NCBI RefSeq assembly: GCF_015732285.1
Contig: NZ_WIQU01000022.1
Location: 6,536-70,535 of the forward strand
Direction of reading: 5' to 3'
DNA length: 64,000 bases
Origin: Pectinatus frisingensis
Lineage (GTDB): Bacteria; Bacillota; Negativicutes; Selenomonadales; Selenomonadaceae
Numbering within the stretch: the stretch's first letter is position 1; each line of letters starts with the position of its first letter. Below the pieces are notes generated by a model. It was not told the origin of the DNA, made no database searches, and worked only from the letters and a program-made list of their open reading frames with translations. A program made the translations under genes and the position numbers. This document shows, one piece after another, positions 4,240 to 19,368 of this stretch.

Positions 4240-4589
4240 TGTATAGAATATTGTAGTGAACCCAAAGTTAGACCTAACCGTAGTAGCATTTATAGTAAGC
4301 GATTACCATTCTGTTATTAGTCGCTTATCGTCGAAAGGTGTGCCGGAAACGGTGTACCGACGCTTTATCAATATTATCTGGCAAATAAGCCGGAGAATTC
4401 AGACTGAGTTGTGCTGCCTGTGACGAACTTCGACGCTTATTTAGGCACGACCATCTTTAGTCGGAATTGGCTCGCCAAGCTGCCGGAAAGTATTCTATAG
4501 CGTGAAAATGACTATGGTGTGTATAAGTAATATTTGTATAATACATTGGATATTCGTCGTAAAAAGTGTTATTTGTTTTCTTTATATCG
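4240..4589. other. Gene-free stretch with decayed coding and IS-like scraps
   Basis: No intact gene is visible. The segment near 4252-4275 (TAGTGAACCCAAAGTTAGAC) resembles the terminal repeat of IS150-group IS3 elements. From about 4410 one frame reads VLPVTNFDAYLGTTIFSRNW up to a TAG at 4498-4500, and another reads LSSKGVPETVYRRFINII, so coding sequence appears to have decayed here. The base composition is already richer in G+C than the TPR genes to the left, as in the ATPase gene that follows. Confidence 0.35.
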
Positions 4590-4618
4590 TTGATATTTTC
4601 GATTTTATGCGCTATACT
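4590..4618 (+). promoter_or_regulatory. Strong-looking promoter of the AAA ATPase gene
   Basis: TTGATA at 4590-4595 and TATACT at 4613-4618 with an exact 17-nt spacer, ending 30 nt before the ATG at 4649 and just upstream of the GGAGGTG ribosome binding site at 4637-4643. Confidence 0.6.
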
Positions 4619-4648
4619 GTACTCACGTTATCATGTGGAGGTGAGTGT

Positions 4649-5953
4649 ATGTACCGATTTGCTATTGAAAAACTCTATAAATGGAAGAAAAGCAAGCGCC
4701 GAAAGCCGCTGATCATCGAAGGGGCGCGTCAGGTCGGCAAGACCTGGCTGATGAAAGAATTCGGTTCCAAGGTGTATGCGAATACCGTATATATCAACTT
4801 CGACTCTAATTCTAGGATGGCGGAGCTGTTCGCGTCTGACCTGAACACTGATCGCCTTATCATGGGGTTGGAGCTTTACGCCGGTCACAAGATCGACGCC
4901 GAAAACACGCTGCTGATTTTTGACGAAGTGCAGGAAGTGCCAAGGGCACTTTCCTCTCTTAAATATTTTTATGAGAACGCACCGCAGTATCATATTATCT
5001 GCGCAGGTTCGCTGTTGGGTATTGCTCTCCACGGCGGAACCTCTTTCCCCGTTGGTAAGGTAGACTTTCTCAAGCTCTATCCGCTTTCTTTCCGGGAATT
5101 CCTGATGGCGACCGGCAACGAGCGATTCACTAAACTACTGGACAAGCAGGATTACGAGATGATCACCTCCTTTAAGCAGACCTACATCGACGCGCTTAAG
5201 TACTATTATTTCGTGGGCGGTATGCCAGAGGCCGTGCAGAGCTTCGCCGAGAACAAGGACTTTAATGAGGCTCGGGAGATACAAAAGCACATTTTGGCGG
5301 CGTATGAGCAGGATTTTTCCAAGCACGCGCCCTATGAGATCGTGCCGAAGATCCGTATGATATGGAACAGCATTCCCTCTCAGCTGGCAAGGGAAAACAA
5401 GAAATTTATTTACGGTCTTGTCCGCGAGGGTGGTCGTGCGAAGGAATACGAGACAGCGATCATGTGGCTCACCGATTGCGGGTTGGTGCACAAAGTCAGC
5501 CGGGTCAACGCCGCCGGAATCCCGCTGAAAGCCTACGAAGACCTGCGGGCGTTCAAGCTGTATATCGTGGACGTGGGGCTATTGGGTTGTATGACTGGAC
5601 TTAGGCAGCGCACACTGCTGGACGGCAATAACCTGTTCACCGAATTCAAAGGTGCACTGACAGAGCAATATGTCTGTCAACAGCTCAAAACCATTGAGGA
5701 TTTGGGCGTCTATTATTTCACCAACGACCGGGGTTCCTGTGAGGTGGATTTTGTCATCGACACCGGCGAAAAGGTCATTCCGGTGGAGGTCAAAGCCGAG
5801 GTCAATCTCAAAGCCAAAAGCCTGCGGGTGTATAAGGATAAATTTAATCCAGAAATCTCCGTCCGTACGTCCATGGCAGATTACAAAAAGGAAGATTGGC
5901 TGGTAAACTTGTCACTGTATGCGGTGGAAGAGATAGATCATGTTGTTTCATAG
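4649..5953 (+). CDS. AAA ATPase with C-terminal DUF4143 domain
   Basis: A 434-residue protein. The start is set at ATG 4649 by a GGAGGTG site 5 nt upstream; the open frame further upstream is promoter DNA. Residues 15-140 hold an AAA_14 ATPase: Walker A GARQVGKTW, Walker B LLIFDEVQEV, and the sensor CAGSLLGIAL. The C-terminal part (about 200-400) is DUF4143, with the PVEVKAEVNLKAKSL nuclease-like lysine/acid motif seen in this family. Family members are mobile accessory genes of unclear role, possibly linked to defence or toxin-like functions. Its G+C content is clearly above that of its neighbours and an IS3 relic starts right after its stop, so it is very probably horizontally acquired. Confidence 0.88.
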   Translation: MYRFAIEKLYKWKKSKRRKPLIIEGARQVGKTWLMKEFGSKVYANTVYINFDSNSRMAELFASDLNTDRLIMGLELYAGHKIDAENTLLIFDEVQEVPRALSSLKYFYENAPQYHIICAGSLLGIALHGGTSFPVGKVDFLKLYPLSFREFLMATGNERFTKLLDKQDYEMITSFKQTYIDALKYYYFVGGMPEAVQSFAENKDFNEAREIQKHILAAYEQDFSKHAPYEIVPKIRMIWNSIPSQLARENKKFIYGLVREGGRAKEYETAIMWLTDCGLVHKVSRVNAAGIPLKAYEDLRAFKLYIVDVGLLGCMTGLRQRTLLDGNNLFTEFKGALTEQYVCQQLKTIEDLGVYYFTNDRGSCEVDFVIDTGEKVIPVEVKAEVNLKAKSLRVYKDKFNPEISVRTSMADYKKEDWLVNLSLYAVEEIDHVVS

Positions 5954-6260
5954 AAAATTATTGAATTCTGCAAGTCAGCCGGCATCCGGCAGAGTATGAG
6001 TAAGGCCGGTTATCCTTATGATAACGCGCCTATGGAACGTTATGACAATACATTGAAAACTGAGCTGATTTATCTGCATTATTACCATTCTGATCAGGAG
6101 TTGAATGCATCCATTGATGAATTTGCTTATGGTTGGTATAATCACGCAAGGCCACATTCATACAACGGTTATAAAACACCATATGAGGCGCGGTATAACT
6201 CATAAAGATTAGGTTGATGTGTTACAAAAATGATTGACTATTACAGTACACCTGCTGTGG
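5954..6260 (+). pseudogene. IS3-family transposase relic (C-terminal end of OrfB plus right IS end)
   Basis: Immediately after the ATPase stop codon, and in the same frame, the sequence reads KIIEFCKSAG then QSMSKAGYPYDNAPMERY, and it continues through NHARPHSYNGYKTPYEARYN to the stop at 6205. This is the end of an IS3-family rve integrase including its last catalytic-region glutamate context; the catalytic D residues and OrfA are missing. The flanking 6210-6253 segment ending ATTACAGTACA resembles an IS3 terminal repeat (TGTACTGTAATAGTC on the other strand). Only the right end is left, so it is immobile. Confidence 0.8.
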
Positions 6261-6304: not shown

Positions 6305-6455
6305 AAAAAAAAGAACTGCCGTATGCAGCCATTTTCATTCATAATGCAATATGCCACTTTCTTTATCCGTATTCAGAAAGGTGGGAGACAGTACAGCGGT
6401 AGTGATTTATATTTTTATGAATTCAATGAGTTGTTTCATGCGACAGTTCTTTTTT
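6305..6455 (-). repeat. Structured 3' element, copy B (large imperfect hairpin after cobT)
   Basis: Terminal arms 6305-6324 and 6436-6455 are complementary (A-run plus GAACTGCCGTATG against CATGCGACAGTTC plus T-run) around about 110 nt that is itself structured. The element is homologous along its length to 17443-17586 on the opposite strand. Blocks in the same order include CGGATAA, ATATTGCAT and TATGAATGAAAATG (minus strand, 6330-6369). It sits right after the cobT stop and ends in a U-run in the cobT sense, so it can act as its terminator. It may be a MITE-like repeat, a conserved 3' RNA, or both. Confidence 0.6.
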
Positions 6456-6460
6456 GTAAG

Positions 6461-7894
6461 TCAAATTTCTTTTTGCCTGCCGGCACCGGGGCCGTCATTG
6501 GCGACGGCAACTGCAGCTTCAGCAAAAGTTTTCATATCATTAAGCATGTGGAGGGCTCCCTCTATCAGTATAAGACCGATTCTTTCGGCAGCGTAGCTGT
6601 TGGTTACCGGCTTTTTCAGGCAGTGGCTGGTTTGGATGATATAGGGAAGCAGTTTATTTTTATTGACAATGATATCGGACAATAAAGGTCGTTCTTTTTG
6701 TAAGGCACCTGCCAGATATACAGCAATTTCCTCGAATTTTCCCAGGCAATGTATTGGTTTGGTCAGATTGTCGATGCGTTCCTGGCATTTGTGCATTATT
6801 GAATCATTCAGCTGCAGGGCAGTGTTGATTGGCAGTGTGGTAAGAGCTGTAGAAGCAGGTACGGAATTAGTTCGAACCATATCATATAATTCCACAGCTA
6901 ATTCGATAAAACGACAGATAACGGCAGATCCGGCAGTTTCACTTAACTGTAAGTGCAGGTCTATATAAGGTGACAATCCTAATTTTTTCAGGGCGGCCTG
7001 ATGTGCCGGCTCGCCGGCCAAATGGGAAGGCATGAGATGCGTCGCTGATGCGGGACAGATGGCCTGGGCAATAAGGGCAGCCGCCGCGGTGTTGAAACCG
7101 TCAAGGATTACCAGACAATTGTTGGCAGCAGCACCAAGAATAATTCCGGCAAGACAGCCAAATTCAAAACCGCCGATTTTTGTTAATACATCTATTCCGT
7201 CATTGGTACGGGGTGCATTAACGGCAAGAGCCTTTTTTACGACAGCAATTTTGGTTTGGAGTCTGCTGTCAGATATATTGGTGCCCCTGCCGGTTGCCTG
7301 TTCCGGGCTTAGTCCACAGATCGCTGCGGCAATAGCGGCACTGGAAGTGGTGTTGGCAATGCCCATTTCTCCGAGTAAAAAGCAGTTATATTTTTTTCGA
7401 ACTAGTTCATTGGCAATATTTATTCCTGTAATTAAGGCTTTTTTGGCATTATTTTCGGACATGGCCGGTCCGTCAGTAAAATTATTTGTACCTAATGCGA
7501 TTTTTTTATTGATCAGTCCGGGTAGATTATTAAGATTGGCAGCAATCCCCATGTCGACTACCAGCATGTCCGCACCGGAAAAGTTAGTCATGGCGTTGGC
7601 CACAGCGCCTTTATTGATCAGATAATTACGGGTCATATCGATAGTGGTTTTTTGTGGATAGGCACTGACCTTCATAGCACAAACACCGTGGTCGGCGCAG
7701 GCTATTACTGCAGCTTTTTTCGGTTTGCGCGGATTGATCTGCCCGGTTATGGCAGCATAGTTCAAAAATATATCATATAATCCGCCTAAACCGAAAATGT
7801 TGTGCAGTGCTGCGGCAGGTCCGGTTTTTACTGAAGCGATGAATGCATCATCTACGGGAGTTATTTTATTTACAGTTGCTGTGATTATTCCCAT
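6461..7894 (-). CDS. cobT: Nicotinate-nucleotide-dimethylbenzimidazole phosphoribosyltransferase with an extra C-terminal domain
   Basis: CobT moves phosphoribose from nicotinate mononucleotide to the lower-ligand base of cobamides. The core (about residues 10-345) has the DHGV motif, GEMGIANTTSSAA, the TGRGT loop and the catalytic-glutamate region LSETAGSAV. At 477 residues it is about 120 longer than usual. The added part (about 365-465) carries RIDNLTKPIHCLGKFEEI, like the N-terminal RxDxLTKPPGSLGRLEE motif of CobT, then ALHMLNDMKTFAEA, like the CobT C-terminus: a second copy of the small helical domain without the Rossmann core. The ATG overlaps the tex stop by one base (TAATG), so the two are coupled. 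No cobamide riboswitch is visible upstream. Confidence 0.88.
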   Translation of the reverse strand: MGIITATVNKITPVDDAFIASVKTGPAAALHNIFGLGGLYDIFLNYAAITGQINPRKPKKAAVIACADHGVCAMKVSAYPQKTTIDMTRNYLINKGAVANAMTNFSGADMLVVDMGIAANLNNLPGLINKKIALGTNNFTDGPAMSENNAKKALITGINIANELVRKKYNCFLLGEMGIANTTSSAAIAAAICGLSPEQATGRGTNISDSRLQTKIAVVKKALAVNAPRTNDGIDVLTKIGGFEFGCLAGIILGAAANNCLVILDGFNTAAAALIAQAICPASATHLMPSHLAGEPAHQAALKKLGLSPYIDLHLQLSETAGSAVICRFIELAVELYDMVRTNSVPASTALTTLPINTALQLNDSIMHKCQERIDNLTKPIHCLGKFEEIAVYLAGALQKERPLLSDIIVNKNKLLPYIIQTSHCLKKPVTNSYAAERIGLILIEGALHMLNDMKTFAEAAVAVANDGPGAGRQKEI

Positions 7895-16151: not shown

Positions 16152-17432
16152 TTGAGTATGAAATTTTTTAAATCATTGCATTTTCAGGTATTTGCATCAA
16201 TAATAATTGGTATTGTATTTGGCTATTTATACCCTGCCCTTGGTACGGAAATGAAACCGTTGGGTGACGCATTTATAAAATTAATTAAGATGATTATAGG
16301 TCCGATTATATTTTGTACTATAGTATGCGGTATTGCCGGTATGGGTGATATGAAGAAAGTTGGCCGGGTCGGTGGTAAAGCCTTGCTGTATTTTGAAGCA
16401 GTAACTACGTTTTCCCTGTTTTTTGGCATATTGCTCGTAGAAGTTTTGAAACCCGGTCAGGGAATGAATATCGATCCATCGACACTTGATGCGTCGTCAG
16501 TGGCTGCATATGCACAGGCGGCACAGACACATACTGTCGGACAGTTTTTTATGAATATAATTCCCAATACAGTAATAGATGCTTTTGCAAAAGGGGAAAT
16601 TTTGCAAATATTACTATTTTCAATTATATTTGGCTGGGCGTTATCGAAGATGGGAGAAAAAGGCAGGCCGCTTTTGCAGATTATCAATGATGTTTCACAG
16701 ACATTTTTCAAGATTGTTGATATAATTATGAAATTGGCACCGGTGGGGACCTTTGGTGCAATGGCATTTACCATTGGTGCTTACGGGATTGGATCATTAA
16801 GCAATTTACTGAAATTACTCGGAACTTTTTATCTGGCATGCTTTTTGTTCTTGATGATCATTATTGGACCTATTGCCAAGTGGGCCGGGATAAATTTTTT
16901 TCATTACCTCAATTATTTTAAGGAAGAACTTTTGGTTGTATTTGGTACGGCATCATCAGAAAGTGTTTTACCGCGTATGATGGAGAAACTGGAAAAATTG
17001 GGCTGCTCTAAATCTATTGTTGGATTGGTCATACCTACAGGGTATTCTTTTAATCTTGATGGGACGTCGATTTATTTGACGATTGCAGCTATATTTTTGG
17101 CACAGGCAACAAATACTGATCTGACTTTTACGCAGGAAGCAACGATAATTGCAGTGCTGCTGCTGACTTCTAAGGGAGCATCCGGAGTTACCGGCAGCGG
17201 TTTTATTGTGCTTGCCGCTACACTATCAAGCATGCCGTCAATACCAGTAGGGGCGTTGGCACTTATTTTCGGTGTAGATCGTTTTATGACACAAGGCCGG
17301 GCTTTAACAAATCTGGTTGGTAATGGTATTGCAACTTTTGTTGTAGCACGTTGGGAAAATGAGCTGGACTATGATAAAATGCAGGTAATTGCCAGTAATG
17401 GTAAAAGAAGTACTAAACACGAATTAGTCTGA
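16152..17432 (+). CDS. dctA: C4-dicarboxylate:cation symporter, DctA type
   Basis: A 426-residue member of the DAACS family that follows the DctA pattern closely. It has [20 protein letters not shown] at the N-terminus, the serine-rich [40 protein letters not shown], and [20 protein letters not shown]. DctA imports succinate, fumarate and malate, which suits a fermenter that uses C4 acids. The TTG at 16152, 10 nt after GGGAGG, is the likely start; ATG 16158 is the alternative. It is monocistronic and followed by structured element A. Confidence 0.93.
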
Positions 17433-17442
17433 ATGAAATTAT

Positions 17443-17586
17443 AAAAAGAGGCTGTCGTACCGATGGCATTGACATCATAGAAATGTAATTCACCGTGTTA
17501 TCCTCCTGCTTTTTTGAGGGCGGATAAGAAAACTGGGATATTGCATGTTTATGAATGAAAATGCACACGTACAGCAGCCTTTTTTA
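17443..17586 (+). repeat. Structured 3' element, copy A (large imperfect hairpin after dctA)
   Basis: Begins 11 nt after the dctA stop. Outer arms AAAAAGAGGCTGTCGTAC (17443-17460) and GTACAGCAGCCTTTTTT (17569-17585) pair imperfectly, and the pairing continues inward (GGCATTGACATCAT against ATGAATGAAAATGC). It is homologous to copy B at 6305-6455 read on the minus strand, with shared blocks CATTGA, TCATA, CGGATAA, ATATTGCAT and TATGAATGAAAATG in order. Its T-run overlaps the stop codon of the convergent GGDEF gene, so it can end transcripts from both sides. Confidence 0.6.
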
Positions 17587-19368
17587 TTGTTCTGTTATAG
17601 TGACGTTGCGTCCGGAATTTTTACCGTTATAAAGAGCCAGGTCGGCTCTTTTTATAATATCTTCTTCGACGGCATCGTCAATATGAATTGTTGAAACTCC
17701 CAGGGTAATAGTAACATGTAATACGTTGTCATTGTGTATCCAGATTTTTTTATCAATTAACTGCCGGATATTTTCAAGTTTATTTTTAGCTTGTTCCAAG
17801 TTGGTTTTTGGCATCAGTAAAATAAATTCTTCCCCTCCCCAGCGTGATGCTATATCGATTCCGGATAAGTTTTTTTTCATGATTTTAGATACTTCGATTA
17901 AAATGAAATCACCGGCGTCATGTCCATACTTATCATTTACTTTTTTGAAAAAATCTATATCAGCCATGCCTAAAGACCAAATTTCTTCGCTGATTTTAAA
18001 TTTTTGAATCATTTCTTTAATTTTTTTTGCTGTGTAGCGGCGATTATTTAATCCGGTCAATTCATCTGTTATTGAAATTTCATGTAATTTTTTATTTAAG
18101 GTAGTAAGATAATTATTTGTATTTTCTTGCAAGATTTTTGTACTTGTCAGTTCAGCTATAGTTTTTTCCAATTCCGAAGTTCTTTCACGGATGATTTTTT
18201 CAAGATTAATGTTTAGCTGGGTTACTTTATTTTCAGCTTTTTTTCTTTTTCTGTATGTTATGAACAAAAAAATAGTCAGTGATGTTTCAAGCAAAATAAC
18301 AATGCTGCCGTAAATTATCCAGTTTTTATAGTGTGTCCATAGAGAAGGCGGTTTATTTTCTATTTGCGTATTTTCCGGTAGTAAGTTTTCATTTATTCCC
18401 CAGCGGGTAAGTTCGTACCAATCAAAAATATATTGATTTACGCAGTTAGGTGTATTGATGACAGGAGAAAGCTTTTTTTTCGCTAAAATATCAATACAGG
18501 CTTTTGCTGCATATTGGCCGACTTGTTTCCAGTTATGCATATAGCCTCCTGTTGCCCCTTTACCTATATAATAAGAATTTATCGTATATATGGGTACTTT
18601 GGCTGAATGGTATATTTTTTGGAAAATTTGCAGAGGAAGGAGTTTTTTGTTATCATCATATCTATTCCAAAATAAATATAATATTGCTGTATCATTTTTA
18701 AAAGTATTTATATTATTGTATATTTCTTCATAATCCATTTTATTGGAAAATACGAATTGAATATTTGGATATTTATCTTTATTGGCGAGAATAGATTTTA
18801 TTGCGCTGTGCCCAAGTGGTGAGTCATTGACGATTATGAAGATTTTCTGTGTATTTGGCCGGGTGGTAAGGATCAACTGAATAATCTTTTCTTTGTCATC
18901 GTTGTCACTGGAAATAATTGTGAGATTGTCAAATAATTGTCTGTTTATCGGTACGGGATCATTGACTTGAATGGCTGCAATAGGGACGTTGGGGAATATT
19001 TTTTGCGAATAAGTTTGCAAAAATGGCAGCATGAAACTATCGCAGATGATAAGATCCGGCGGCGCGTTTTTAAATTTTGCTGCGAGGTGGCGGGCCATTT
19101 CCGGCAGGTAATCATCTTGTGATGCAAAATGGATTAAGTCGAAGTAACTATAAGAATATGTAAAGTTATAAGTATCGTCTTTATTAAATTGTTCTTTTAT
19201 TCCATCTATCCAAGCATTAACGGAAGGATAATCCGGGTTATACCCGCTGATAAAAAGAATATGTTTATCATTTTCTACTGTCTGGCATTCAGCTGTTTCG
19301 CTCAAAGCTGTTATCATAATAATTATCATAAATATGAAAAAGTAATGTTTAAAATAAAATCGTTGCAT
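17584..19368 (-). CDS. Membrane-bound diguanylate cyclase with ABC-type substrate-binding sensor
   Basis: A 594-residue protein. A signal/anchor segment lies at residues 8-28. Residues 32-330 form a periplasmic domain of the ABC_sub_bind type (HILFISGYNPDYPSVNAW at its start). A membrane helix at about 348-370 and a coiled coil at 375-425 follow, and then a GGDEF domain with LTGLNNRRY and RWGGEEFILLMP. The active-site GGEEF is intact, so it should make cyclic di-GMP when the sensor is triggered. The inhibitory RxxD site is replaced by SGID five residues before the motif, so product inhibition is probably lost. No EAL or effector gene is nearby. The natural ligand is unknown. Confidence 0.9.
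   Translation of the reverse strand: MQRFYFKHYFFIFMIIIMITALSETAECQTVENDKHILFISGYNPDYPSVNAWIDGIKEQFNKDDTYNFTYSYSYFDLIHFASQDDYLPEMARHLAAKFKNAPPDLIICDSFMLPFLQTYSQKIFPNVPIAAIQVNDPVPINRQLFDNLTIISSDNDDKEKIIQLILTTRPNTQKIFIIVNDSPLGHSAIKSILANKDKYPNIQFVFSNKMDYEEIYNNINTFKNDTAILYLFWNRYDDNKKLLPLQIFQKIYHSAKVPIYTINSYYIGKGATGGYMHNWKQVGQYAAKACIDILAKKKLSPVINTPNCVNQYIFDWYELTRWGINENLLPENTQIENKPPSLWTHYKNWIIYGSIVILLETSLTIFLFITYRKRKKAENKVTQLNINLEKIIRERTSELEKTIAELTSTKILQENTNNYLTTLNKKLHEISITDELTGLNNRRYTAKKIKEMIQKFKISEEIWSLGMADIDFFKKVNDKYGHDAGDFILIEVSKIMKKNLSGIDIASRWGGEEFILLMPKTNLEQAKNKLENIRQLIDKKIWIHNDNVLHVTITLGVSTIHIDDAVEEDIIKRADLALYNGKNSGRNVTITEQ

Follow-up and report, generated by a model that had tools for sequence, protein, structure and literature searches.

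A probable exchange of intrinsic terminators for copies of an old IS1182-type MITE in Pectinatus frisingensis

What is it that stands directly after cobT, and again where dctA and an oppositely directed gene run towards each other, in the stretch of Pectinatus frisingensis DNA analysed here (64,000 nucleotides, called the window below)? At both places the DNA folds back on itself, an A-run standing before the fold and a T-run after it. Is it a structured RNA of the host, a mobile palindrome or a terminator, and could it be more than one of these? The reading preferred here, to which we give a probability of about 0.72, is that of an old MITE of IS1182 type that put itself in the place of terminators. 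At roughly a hundred places it appears to have taken over their job, sitting, at the sites checked, where relatives have ordinary terminators.

Copy 1, a foldback element of 139 nt by profile bounds, occupies 6312 to 6450 on the minus strand, directly 3′ of an open reading frame (6461 to 7894, same strand) with similar DNA in the sister species G001 to G004, which was called cobT in an earlier note from sequence alone and which we take to be that gene. It is the match of the family model R1, described below, at C60:12849-12983. In its fold the 5′ arm of the outer stem P1, AGAACTGTCGCATG (6437 to 6450), pairs with the 3′ arm, CATACGGCAGTTCT (6312 to 6325), an assignment that also draws on family covariation. 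The central part, approximately 6353 to 6405 and degenerate here, corresponds to a REP-like core by homology of better-kept copies, and the A-run of the 5′ foot (6451 to 6455) and the T-run of the 3′ foot (6305 to 6311) are assigned from sequence and from the composition of family flanks. Copy 2, on the plus strand (134 nt, 17448 to 17581, again by profile bounds; R1 match at C60:23984-24115), is of the same build. Its P1 arms, GAGGCTGTCGTACC (17448 to 17461) and CGTACAGCAGCCTT (17568 to 17581), are paired by the same two kinds of evidence, its equally degenerate REP-like core is placed by the same homology at approximately 17490 to 17537, and by sequence its A-run is at 17443 to 17447 and the rest of its T-run at 17582 to 17585. 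It lies between dctA (16152 to 17432, plus strand; an ORF with similar DNA in G002 and G003, named in the same way and presumably correctly) and a convergent ORF (17584 to 19368, minus strand) containing what we take to be a GGDEF-like motif; the stop codon of the latter (TTA, 17584 to 17586) overlaps the T-run. As an observation apart, an open frame of 83 codons (5954 to 6205, plus strand), between an ORF at 4502 to 5953 and cobT, presumably resembles the C-terminal end of an IS3/IS150-type transposase, to judge by the motif RPHSYNGYKTP.

The earlier note had regarded the two copies as homologous on the strength of blocks shared in order along their length, and this is borne out: CATTGA, TCATA, TCAC, CGGATAA, ATATTGCAT and TATGAATGAAAATG are all present in the right order in both, as are the A-run before and the T-run after that it had described. 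Two instances of the paired motif TATTGCAT-N0-6-TATGAATGAAAATG are present in the window, and 100 shuffles yielded none. TATGAATGAAAATG alone, with up to two mismatches, occurs four times there, which is not above chance since 24 of the 100 shuffles reach four. Both copies fold better than all of 200 shuffles (z of −4.0 and −7.0), and no Rfam model matches the window at its gathering score.

How large is the family? A blastn search with copy 1 against the genome to which the window belongs (G000; 2.92 Mb, 71 contigs) gave 40 matches. Model R1, built from 28 copies and confined to sequence because default RNAalifold gave no pairs for them, returned at least 124 matches at E ≤ 0.01 (150 of 1903 candidates scored). 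Merging hits to opposite strands at a single place, and the parts of one split copy, leaves at least 106 places, so the further copies on whose existence the family idea had been made to depend are there in abundance. Among these 106, 84 are full length by profile and 95 score 34 bits or more. The element is thus short (about 135 nt), non-coding and present in many dispersed copies, the features by which a MITE is recognised. A first search of relatives found matches in three of 60 genomes, those of G000, the sister species G004 and a member of another genus, G027. Under laxer filters applied to 16 genomes, G004 gave 79 matches (both-strand duplicates and core-only places included), G027 two and G028 one weak partial match, and there were none in G001 to G003, of the same genus, or in the other ten genomes. 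No pair among the 3486 that G000's own copies form is above 85% identity, and with no near-identical copies the family is therefore not recently active. One inner motif, used as an exact pattern, was absent from the named genome collection, and the family is undescribed in the literature searched, which comprised open-licence papers, with long result lists viewed in part. That the copies are one dispersed, once-mobile family we consider nearly certain.

The outer stem, 14 pairs long (GGGGCTGTCGCAYG) and lengthened by A/T pairs, comes first as one proceeds inwards from the element's ends, followed by conserved inner arms, CATTGACCTCATAAA-ATGCAA against TTGCATATTTATGAATGAAAATG, and then by a variable centre; read by eye from the consensus, the terminal inverted repeats are imperfect and about 42 bp long. 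The structure test used 79 of the 84 full-length copies (118 to 142 nt) and a named structure, of whose cells 85.8% are paired against 81.6% in shuffles. Both sides have changed at 26 of the 34 pairs, and the covariation score of the whole structure, 0.259 against 0.196, is reached by none of 500 shuffles; as the structure was taken from the same alignment, one control leans its way, and related copies inflate the other. In the outer helix 82.6% of cells are paired and 15 of the 17 pairs, three A/T pairs included, are doubly changed, and so the remark made from two copies, that the outer stems differ and yet stay paired, extends to all 79. Even the base just outside each end pairs across the element more often than in mismatched copies (65% against 39%), and the next two bases follow with 71 against 65% and 60 against 51%, with nothing further out. 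Whatever the identity class, and also among G004 copies and in comparisons between the species, difference rates increase from the 3′ arm through the 5′ arm and the outer stem to the core; for the 113 closest pairs they are 0.096 and 0.148 in the inner arms as against 0.344 in the core. G004 has nearly the same arm consensus, and the inner arms are conserved beyond what a plain terminator needs.

Homology links the centre to a REP-like double hairpin. By blastn the core matched 19 of 150 genomes, G000 and G004 included, and 16 of the other 17 belong to the same family. In these relatives it stands alone, in 19 stretches from 18 loci in which no such terminal repeats are seen by eye. As an exact pattern it recurs in 98 stretches of the named records. 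Of these, the 80 listed come mostly from bins of Selenomonas, Schwartzia and other Selenomonadales, part of them labelled Veillonellaceae, and include two from Acidaminococcaceae and three from Oscillospiraceae. The converse is met in G027, where the same terminus and a ATAAATATGCAA block surround a different centre, in the only two places found. Because the core occurs alone in relatives and the termini occur in G027 with another centre, we infer that the termini together with the arms probably form the unit and that the centre is exchangeable. REP-like cores are arranged otherwise elsewhere in G004: L144 (1879-2260; G004:C1:2055377-2055766) has three tandem units of about 162 bp with such a core (ATGCAACCCACCACCGCT..CGGTTCCCCGCCCTTCTAAGGGCGGACAAAGG) and without the element's terminal repeats, and L145 shows a module, present three times (G004:C1:904583/904928, 915293/915639 and 918351/918697), in which two REP-like cores stand inverted to each other at a distance of about 345 bp.

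From what kind of mobile DNA could such termini derive? The consensus terminus, GGGGCTGTCGCA, is found exactly at four of the eight ends of four IS1182-family loci, from Butyrivibrio pCY186 (L401), Enterococcus pEC369 (L402) and IMG/VR (L397 and L398), and GGGGCTGTCGCT at two; outer Gs are absent at two of the eight, one at the left end of L398 and two at the left end of L397. The terminus of close IS1182-family members, GGGGCTGTCGC followed by A or T, is present at six of the eight ends of the same four loci. Variant ends are seen in L399, L400, L403 and L141, and in L404 neither a terminal pair nor GGGGCTGTCGC was found. The match concerns the outer 12 bp and was made with IS1182 copies, in which, among those examined, the inner part of the approximately 42-bp repeats was not seen. 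Contig C54 of G000 itself holds a relic (L141), a broken transposase gene whose main frame matches NCBIfam IS1182 with E = 6.9e-40, as a fragment below that model's cut-off, and also matches Pfam DUF772. GGGGGTGTCGCACTAAG precedes this gene, and the terminus of the relic, GGGGGTGTCGCA, is near-identical to the element's end. The left ends of L401, L402, L397 and the relic fold into hairpins followed by T-runs. A tblastn search over the loci examined, which included 40 further contigs of G000, whole or in their first 9 kb, found no intact IS1182 in G000. Apart from L141, the candidates for IS ends in L116 and L137 to L143 were rejected as fragments, short hairpins or coding sequence. The target-site duplications for which the earlier note had suggested looking did not materialise: among 84 copies none is clear and no length is consistent. 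Direct repeats of 2 nt number 16 against 7.3 expected, 12 of them being AT, which is self-complementary; perfect 4-nt repeats number three against 0.7 expected and there is one of 6 nt against 0.1, with none at the other lengths from 3 to 15 nt. A few copies may have duplications, of 4 or 6 nt. The absence of clear ones fits the published behaviour of IS1272, which has none either, so that a MITE need not strictly show them. That transposition of IS1182 type spread the family is, on this evidence, probable.

Where, in relation to genes, have the copies come to rest? A simple gene call, by longest ORF, gave neighbours for 93 of the 95 strong copies; the two others, at contig edges, were dropped. 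None lies inside a called gene. Six extend 20 to 56 nt past the called start of a neighbouring ORF, and as start codons were chosen mechanically these starts may be misplaced. The controls are 68 gaps without the element, from 11 stretches totalling 173 kb. Convergent genes flank 43 of the 93 copies as against 11 of the 68 control gaps (p = 4.5e-5), and divergent genes six as against 19 (p = 2.3e-4). The remaining 44 are between codirectional genes, 27 in the sense of the genes and 17 in the opposite sense (p = 0.17). The earlier note had both copies in the same sense as the upstream gene, which is correct for the two in the window and does not carry over to the family. Facing gene 3′ ends (n = 130) are at a median distance of 23 nt, 86 of them within 40 nt; for facing gene starts (n = 56) the median is 145 nt. 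In the flank after the element T is present in 86% of 84 copies at +2 and 69% at +3, and thereafter in about half. The element accordingly has the form of an intrinsic terminator, a hairpin with a G+C-rich stem and a T-rich tract, just after stop codons. Passages of PMC1590033 describe terminators of low-GC Firmicutes as often having an A-run as well as a T-run, and as possibly working in both directions.

If it is a terminator, what do relatives without it have instead? Seven sites could be read in sister genomes where the junction was findable: cobT, dctA, e042, e073, e093 (a short copy of 91 nt), e049 and e003, with only one flanking gene corresponding at dctA and e093. By one fixed rule, a terminator-like hairpin is present at 18 of the 20 orthologous junctions as against 28 of 200 mononucleotide shuffles, 17 being the safer count because the cobT hairpin in G002 lies in the next gene. 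These hairpins, found for six of the seven sites, are unrelated to the element, and the two junctions without one are e049 in G001 and e003, an empty site, in G004. Empty sites, another expectation for a mobile sequence, are thus at hand, as the sister genomes read have no element at e042, e073, e093, e049 or e003. At six of the sites in G000, all but e003, the DNA remaining beside the element either lacks a hairpin of this kind or is not long enough to form one. A plain terminator has survived in G000 at another site, e006, where the element lies about 100 nt beyond it, and for that reason the three positive e006 junctions were left out of the 20. No exact before-and-after pair was found at the hairpin sites, the flanks being too diverged. 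Seven junctions are occupied in both G000 and G004, six by comparison of neighbours plus that of cobT, with a shortened copy; e060 is a doubtful eighth. At five of the seven the element is inverted between the two genomes, and the six pairs are no more alike than random G000-G004 pairs (percentiles 0.04 to 0.69), so that vertical descent could not be shown. The shared junctions suggest targets used more than once and not a common inheritance, and the cobT pair, which has the same orientation in both and is outside the six compared, may have been inherited. The suggestion of small mobile palindromes adopted as terminators, one of those in the earlier note, is upheld by about 100 dispersed copies, their patchy presence in sister species, IS-family termini, positions after stop codons and ordinary terminators at orthologous junctions. 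That the element stands in for terminators we hold to be very probable.

The course of events that we propose is as follows. The element would be a MITE of about 135 bp, with imperfect repeats of about 42 bp, the outer 12 bp of IS1182 type, around a REP-like double-hairpin core. A putative IS1182-family transposase, acting in trans, would have moved copies into the hairpins of intrinsic terminators, in either orientation and without target duplication, the target hairpin being removed, presumably by the insertion itself; the order, terminator first and element later, is likewise what we suppose. Because the element folds end to end, with an A-run at its 5′ foot and a T-run at its 3′ foot, its insertion would amount to a terminator exchange, each event swapping one terminator for another that could terminate in both directions, and selection on the paired outer stem would then keep the resident copies as terminators. 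Whether targeting of terminators, and not only later selection, explains the positions seems evenly poised. The same even odds apply to the fuller picture of a near-neutral element that seeks terminators, removes them and supplies its own bidirectional one, having taken about 100 transcription-unit 3′ ends, with host selection maintaining the copies and the conserved arms perhaps binding a host factor.

There are precedents for several of these steps. In passages of PMC4923244, TnSha1 and IS1272, staphylococcal members of the IS1182 family, are described as inserting into hairpins, five of the first seven targets being confirmed terminators and one of the seven being in a coding region. The cuts are blunt, the hairpin is partly deleted, no target duplication arises, both orientations occur and some targets were hit more than once (PMC4923244). 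That pattern is close to the present one and belongs to the same family as the IS whose termini match; the likeness of the termini, however, rests on other IS1182-family members and not on IS1272's own terminus. IS1272 encodes a transposase, whereas the present element is non-coding, has about 100 copies and is itself a full-length hairpin. As to other MITEs with an IS1182 partner, a table passage in PMC3852290 has the short, non-coding ISMac2-related ones of Methanosarcina acetivorans, of 160 and 169 bp; those of that archaeon differ in numbering 14 and seven copies and in having inverted repeats of about 25 to 26 bp, and no relation to terminators is given in the table passage. SPRITE of Streptococcus pneumoniae, as presented in parts of PMC3049150, is like the present element a terminator-like interspersed repeat, over-represented between convergent genes and near gene 3′ ends, and its co-option as a terminator has been suggested there. 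SPRITE has an 18-bp duplex and a U-rich tract, with 30 copies in one table (PMC3049150), unlike the present foldback of about 135 nt with its IS1182-type termini. The latter was also compared with sister genomes at the same junctions. Termini distinguish it from ERIC, Correia, RUP and BOX too. These share with it small size, interspersion and a stable foldback, and the sections of PMC10969869 that treat them regard terminator formation by such repeats as conceivable and document no many-locus exchange of terminators.

Could the element instead be merely tolerated 3′ of genes, inserting in any AT-rich DNA, persisting only where it does no harm and neither targeting nor replacing terminators? 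The enrichment of pneumococcal repeats between convergent genes has also been read as tolerated parasites, in a passage of PMC3049150, and both the hairpin-less empty site at e003 and the plain terminator kept at e006 would suit that. It sits poorly, however, with terminator-like hairpins at 18 of 20 orthologous junctions, with the absence of a second hairpin beside the element at six G000 sites (most of the stretches being short), with the median of 23 nt to facing gene ends and with a lean of wobbles to the transcribed strand, and we think it unlikely. This last point needs explanation, as over all copies the outer stem has 134 G.U and 107 A.C cells, and because these are similar no strand is fixed. 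If each codirectional copy is taken in the sense in which the upstream gene is transcribed, wobbles outnumber mismatches in the outer helix, 76 to 48 (p = 0.015), and also in the inner stems, 42 to 30 (p = 0.19), p values that are optimistic because the copies are related. The direction is what terminators under selection would predict; for T-run strength in relation to gene direction there is a trend only (p about 0.18). Near equality of G.U and A.C over all copies is also what is predicted if mutation alone were at work, with template switching correcting imperfect palindromes, so that covariation would show no selection. Template switching is compatible with exchange of terminators by an IS1182-type MITE and can coexist with it; as a sufficient account it leaves the positions, the terminators at orthologous junctions and the strand-aware wobble excess unexplained, and is quite improbable.

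The same strand counts bear on a conserved 3′ RNA tied to one strand, which the earlier note had also entertained and for which, in that shape, there is no support: outer-stem G.U and A.C counts are similar overall, orientation is not significantly biased and five of the seven shared junctions are inverted. In its broader form, a structured or regulatory 3′ RNA family of the host, spread by duplication and acting on one strand through its conserved arms, it can point to those arms as the most conserved part in every identity class and to a consensus nearly the same in G004, while the 134 G.U against 107 A.C cells of the outer stem, the 27 against 17 orientations, the mostly inverted shared junctions, the lack of any Rfam match at E ≤ 1 in four loci and the lack of any match in G001 to G003 make it very improbable. 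Still less credit is due to a REP/BIME-type repeat moved by a Y1 transposase (RAYT or IS200-type). It is suggested by the REP-like double-hairpin centre and by the recurrence of that core, outside G000 and G004, almost wholly in the same family, and has against it both the 19 core stretches of relatives without such terminal repeats by eye and the other genus in which the termini surround a different centre. Y1 genes (PF01797) are in all five genus members, so that their presence alone does not track the element; in G000 there is one partial match only, and types were judged by ORF length. An IS605-type element, a Y1 gene followed by a tnpB-like frame, adjoins the T-run of a G004 copy in L068 (1390-1500; G004:C1:719800-719960); it was considered as a parent and rejected, having ends of its own.

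If exchange of terminators by an IS1182-type MITE is the true account, an essential and normally private signal, the terminator, would have been handed at many loci to a transposable element, the handover working by recognition of hairpin shape and by return of the same function. It would also connect what has been published on hairpin targeting by IS1272 to a long-standing puzzle, the crowding of small bacterial repeats between convergent genes.

Several smaller foldbacks deserve mention. Internally deleted copies of about 56 to 76 bp, with both termini kept, are in L016 (G000:C8:138568), L116 (1272-1327), where the short copy abuts a further terminus fragment, and L110 (G000:C65:35513-35588). 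Plain short hairpins with stems, GGGGCTGTCGCATG or GGGGCTGCCGCATGAAG, like the element's terminus are in L138 (G000:C24:105638, after an rplL-like ORF) and L179 (G002:C4:312990), and may be extreme internal deletions of the element or due to chance. One of the two G027 foldbacks (L062, 1496-1630, and L064) is nearly perfect. Related-looking foldbacks with GGGGCTGTCATATG or GGGGCTGCCGCATATA termini are in L135 (1128-1269; G000:C29:10327-10468) and, in G004, in L177 and L178, and the three G004 copies agree over the stretches printed.
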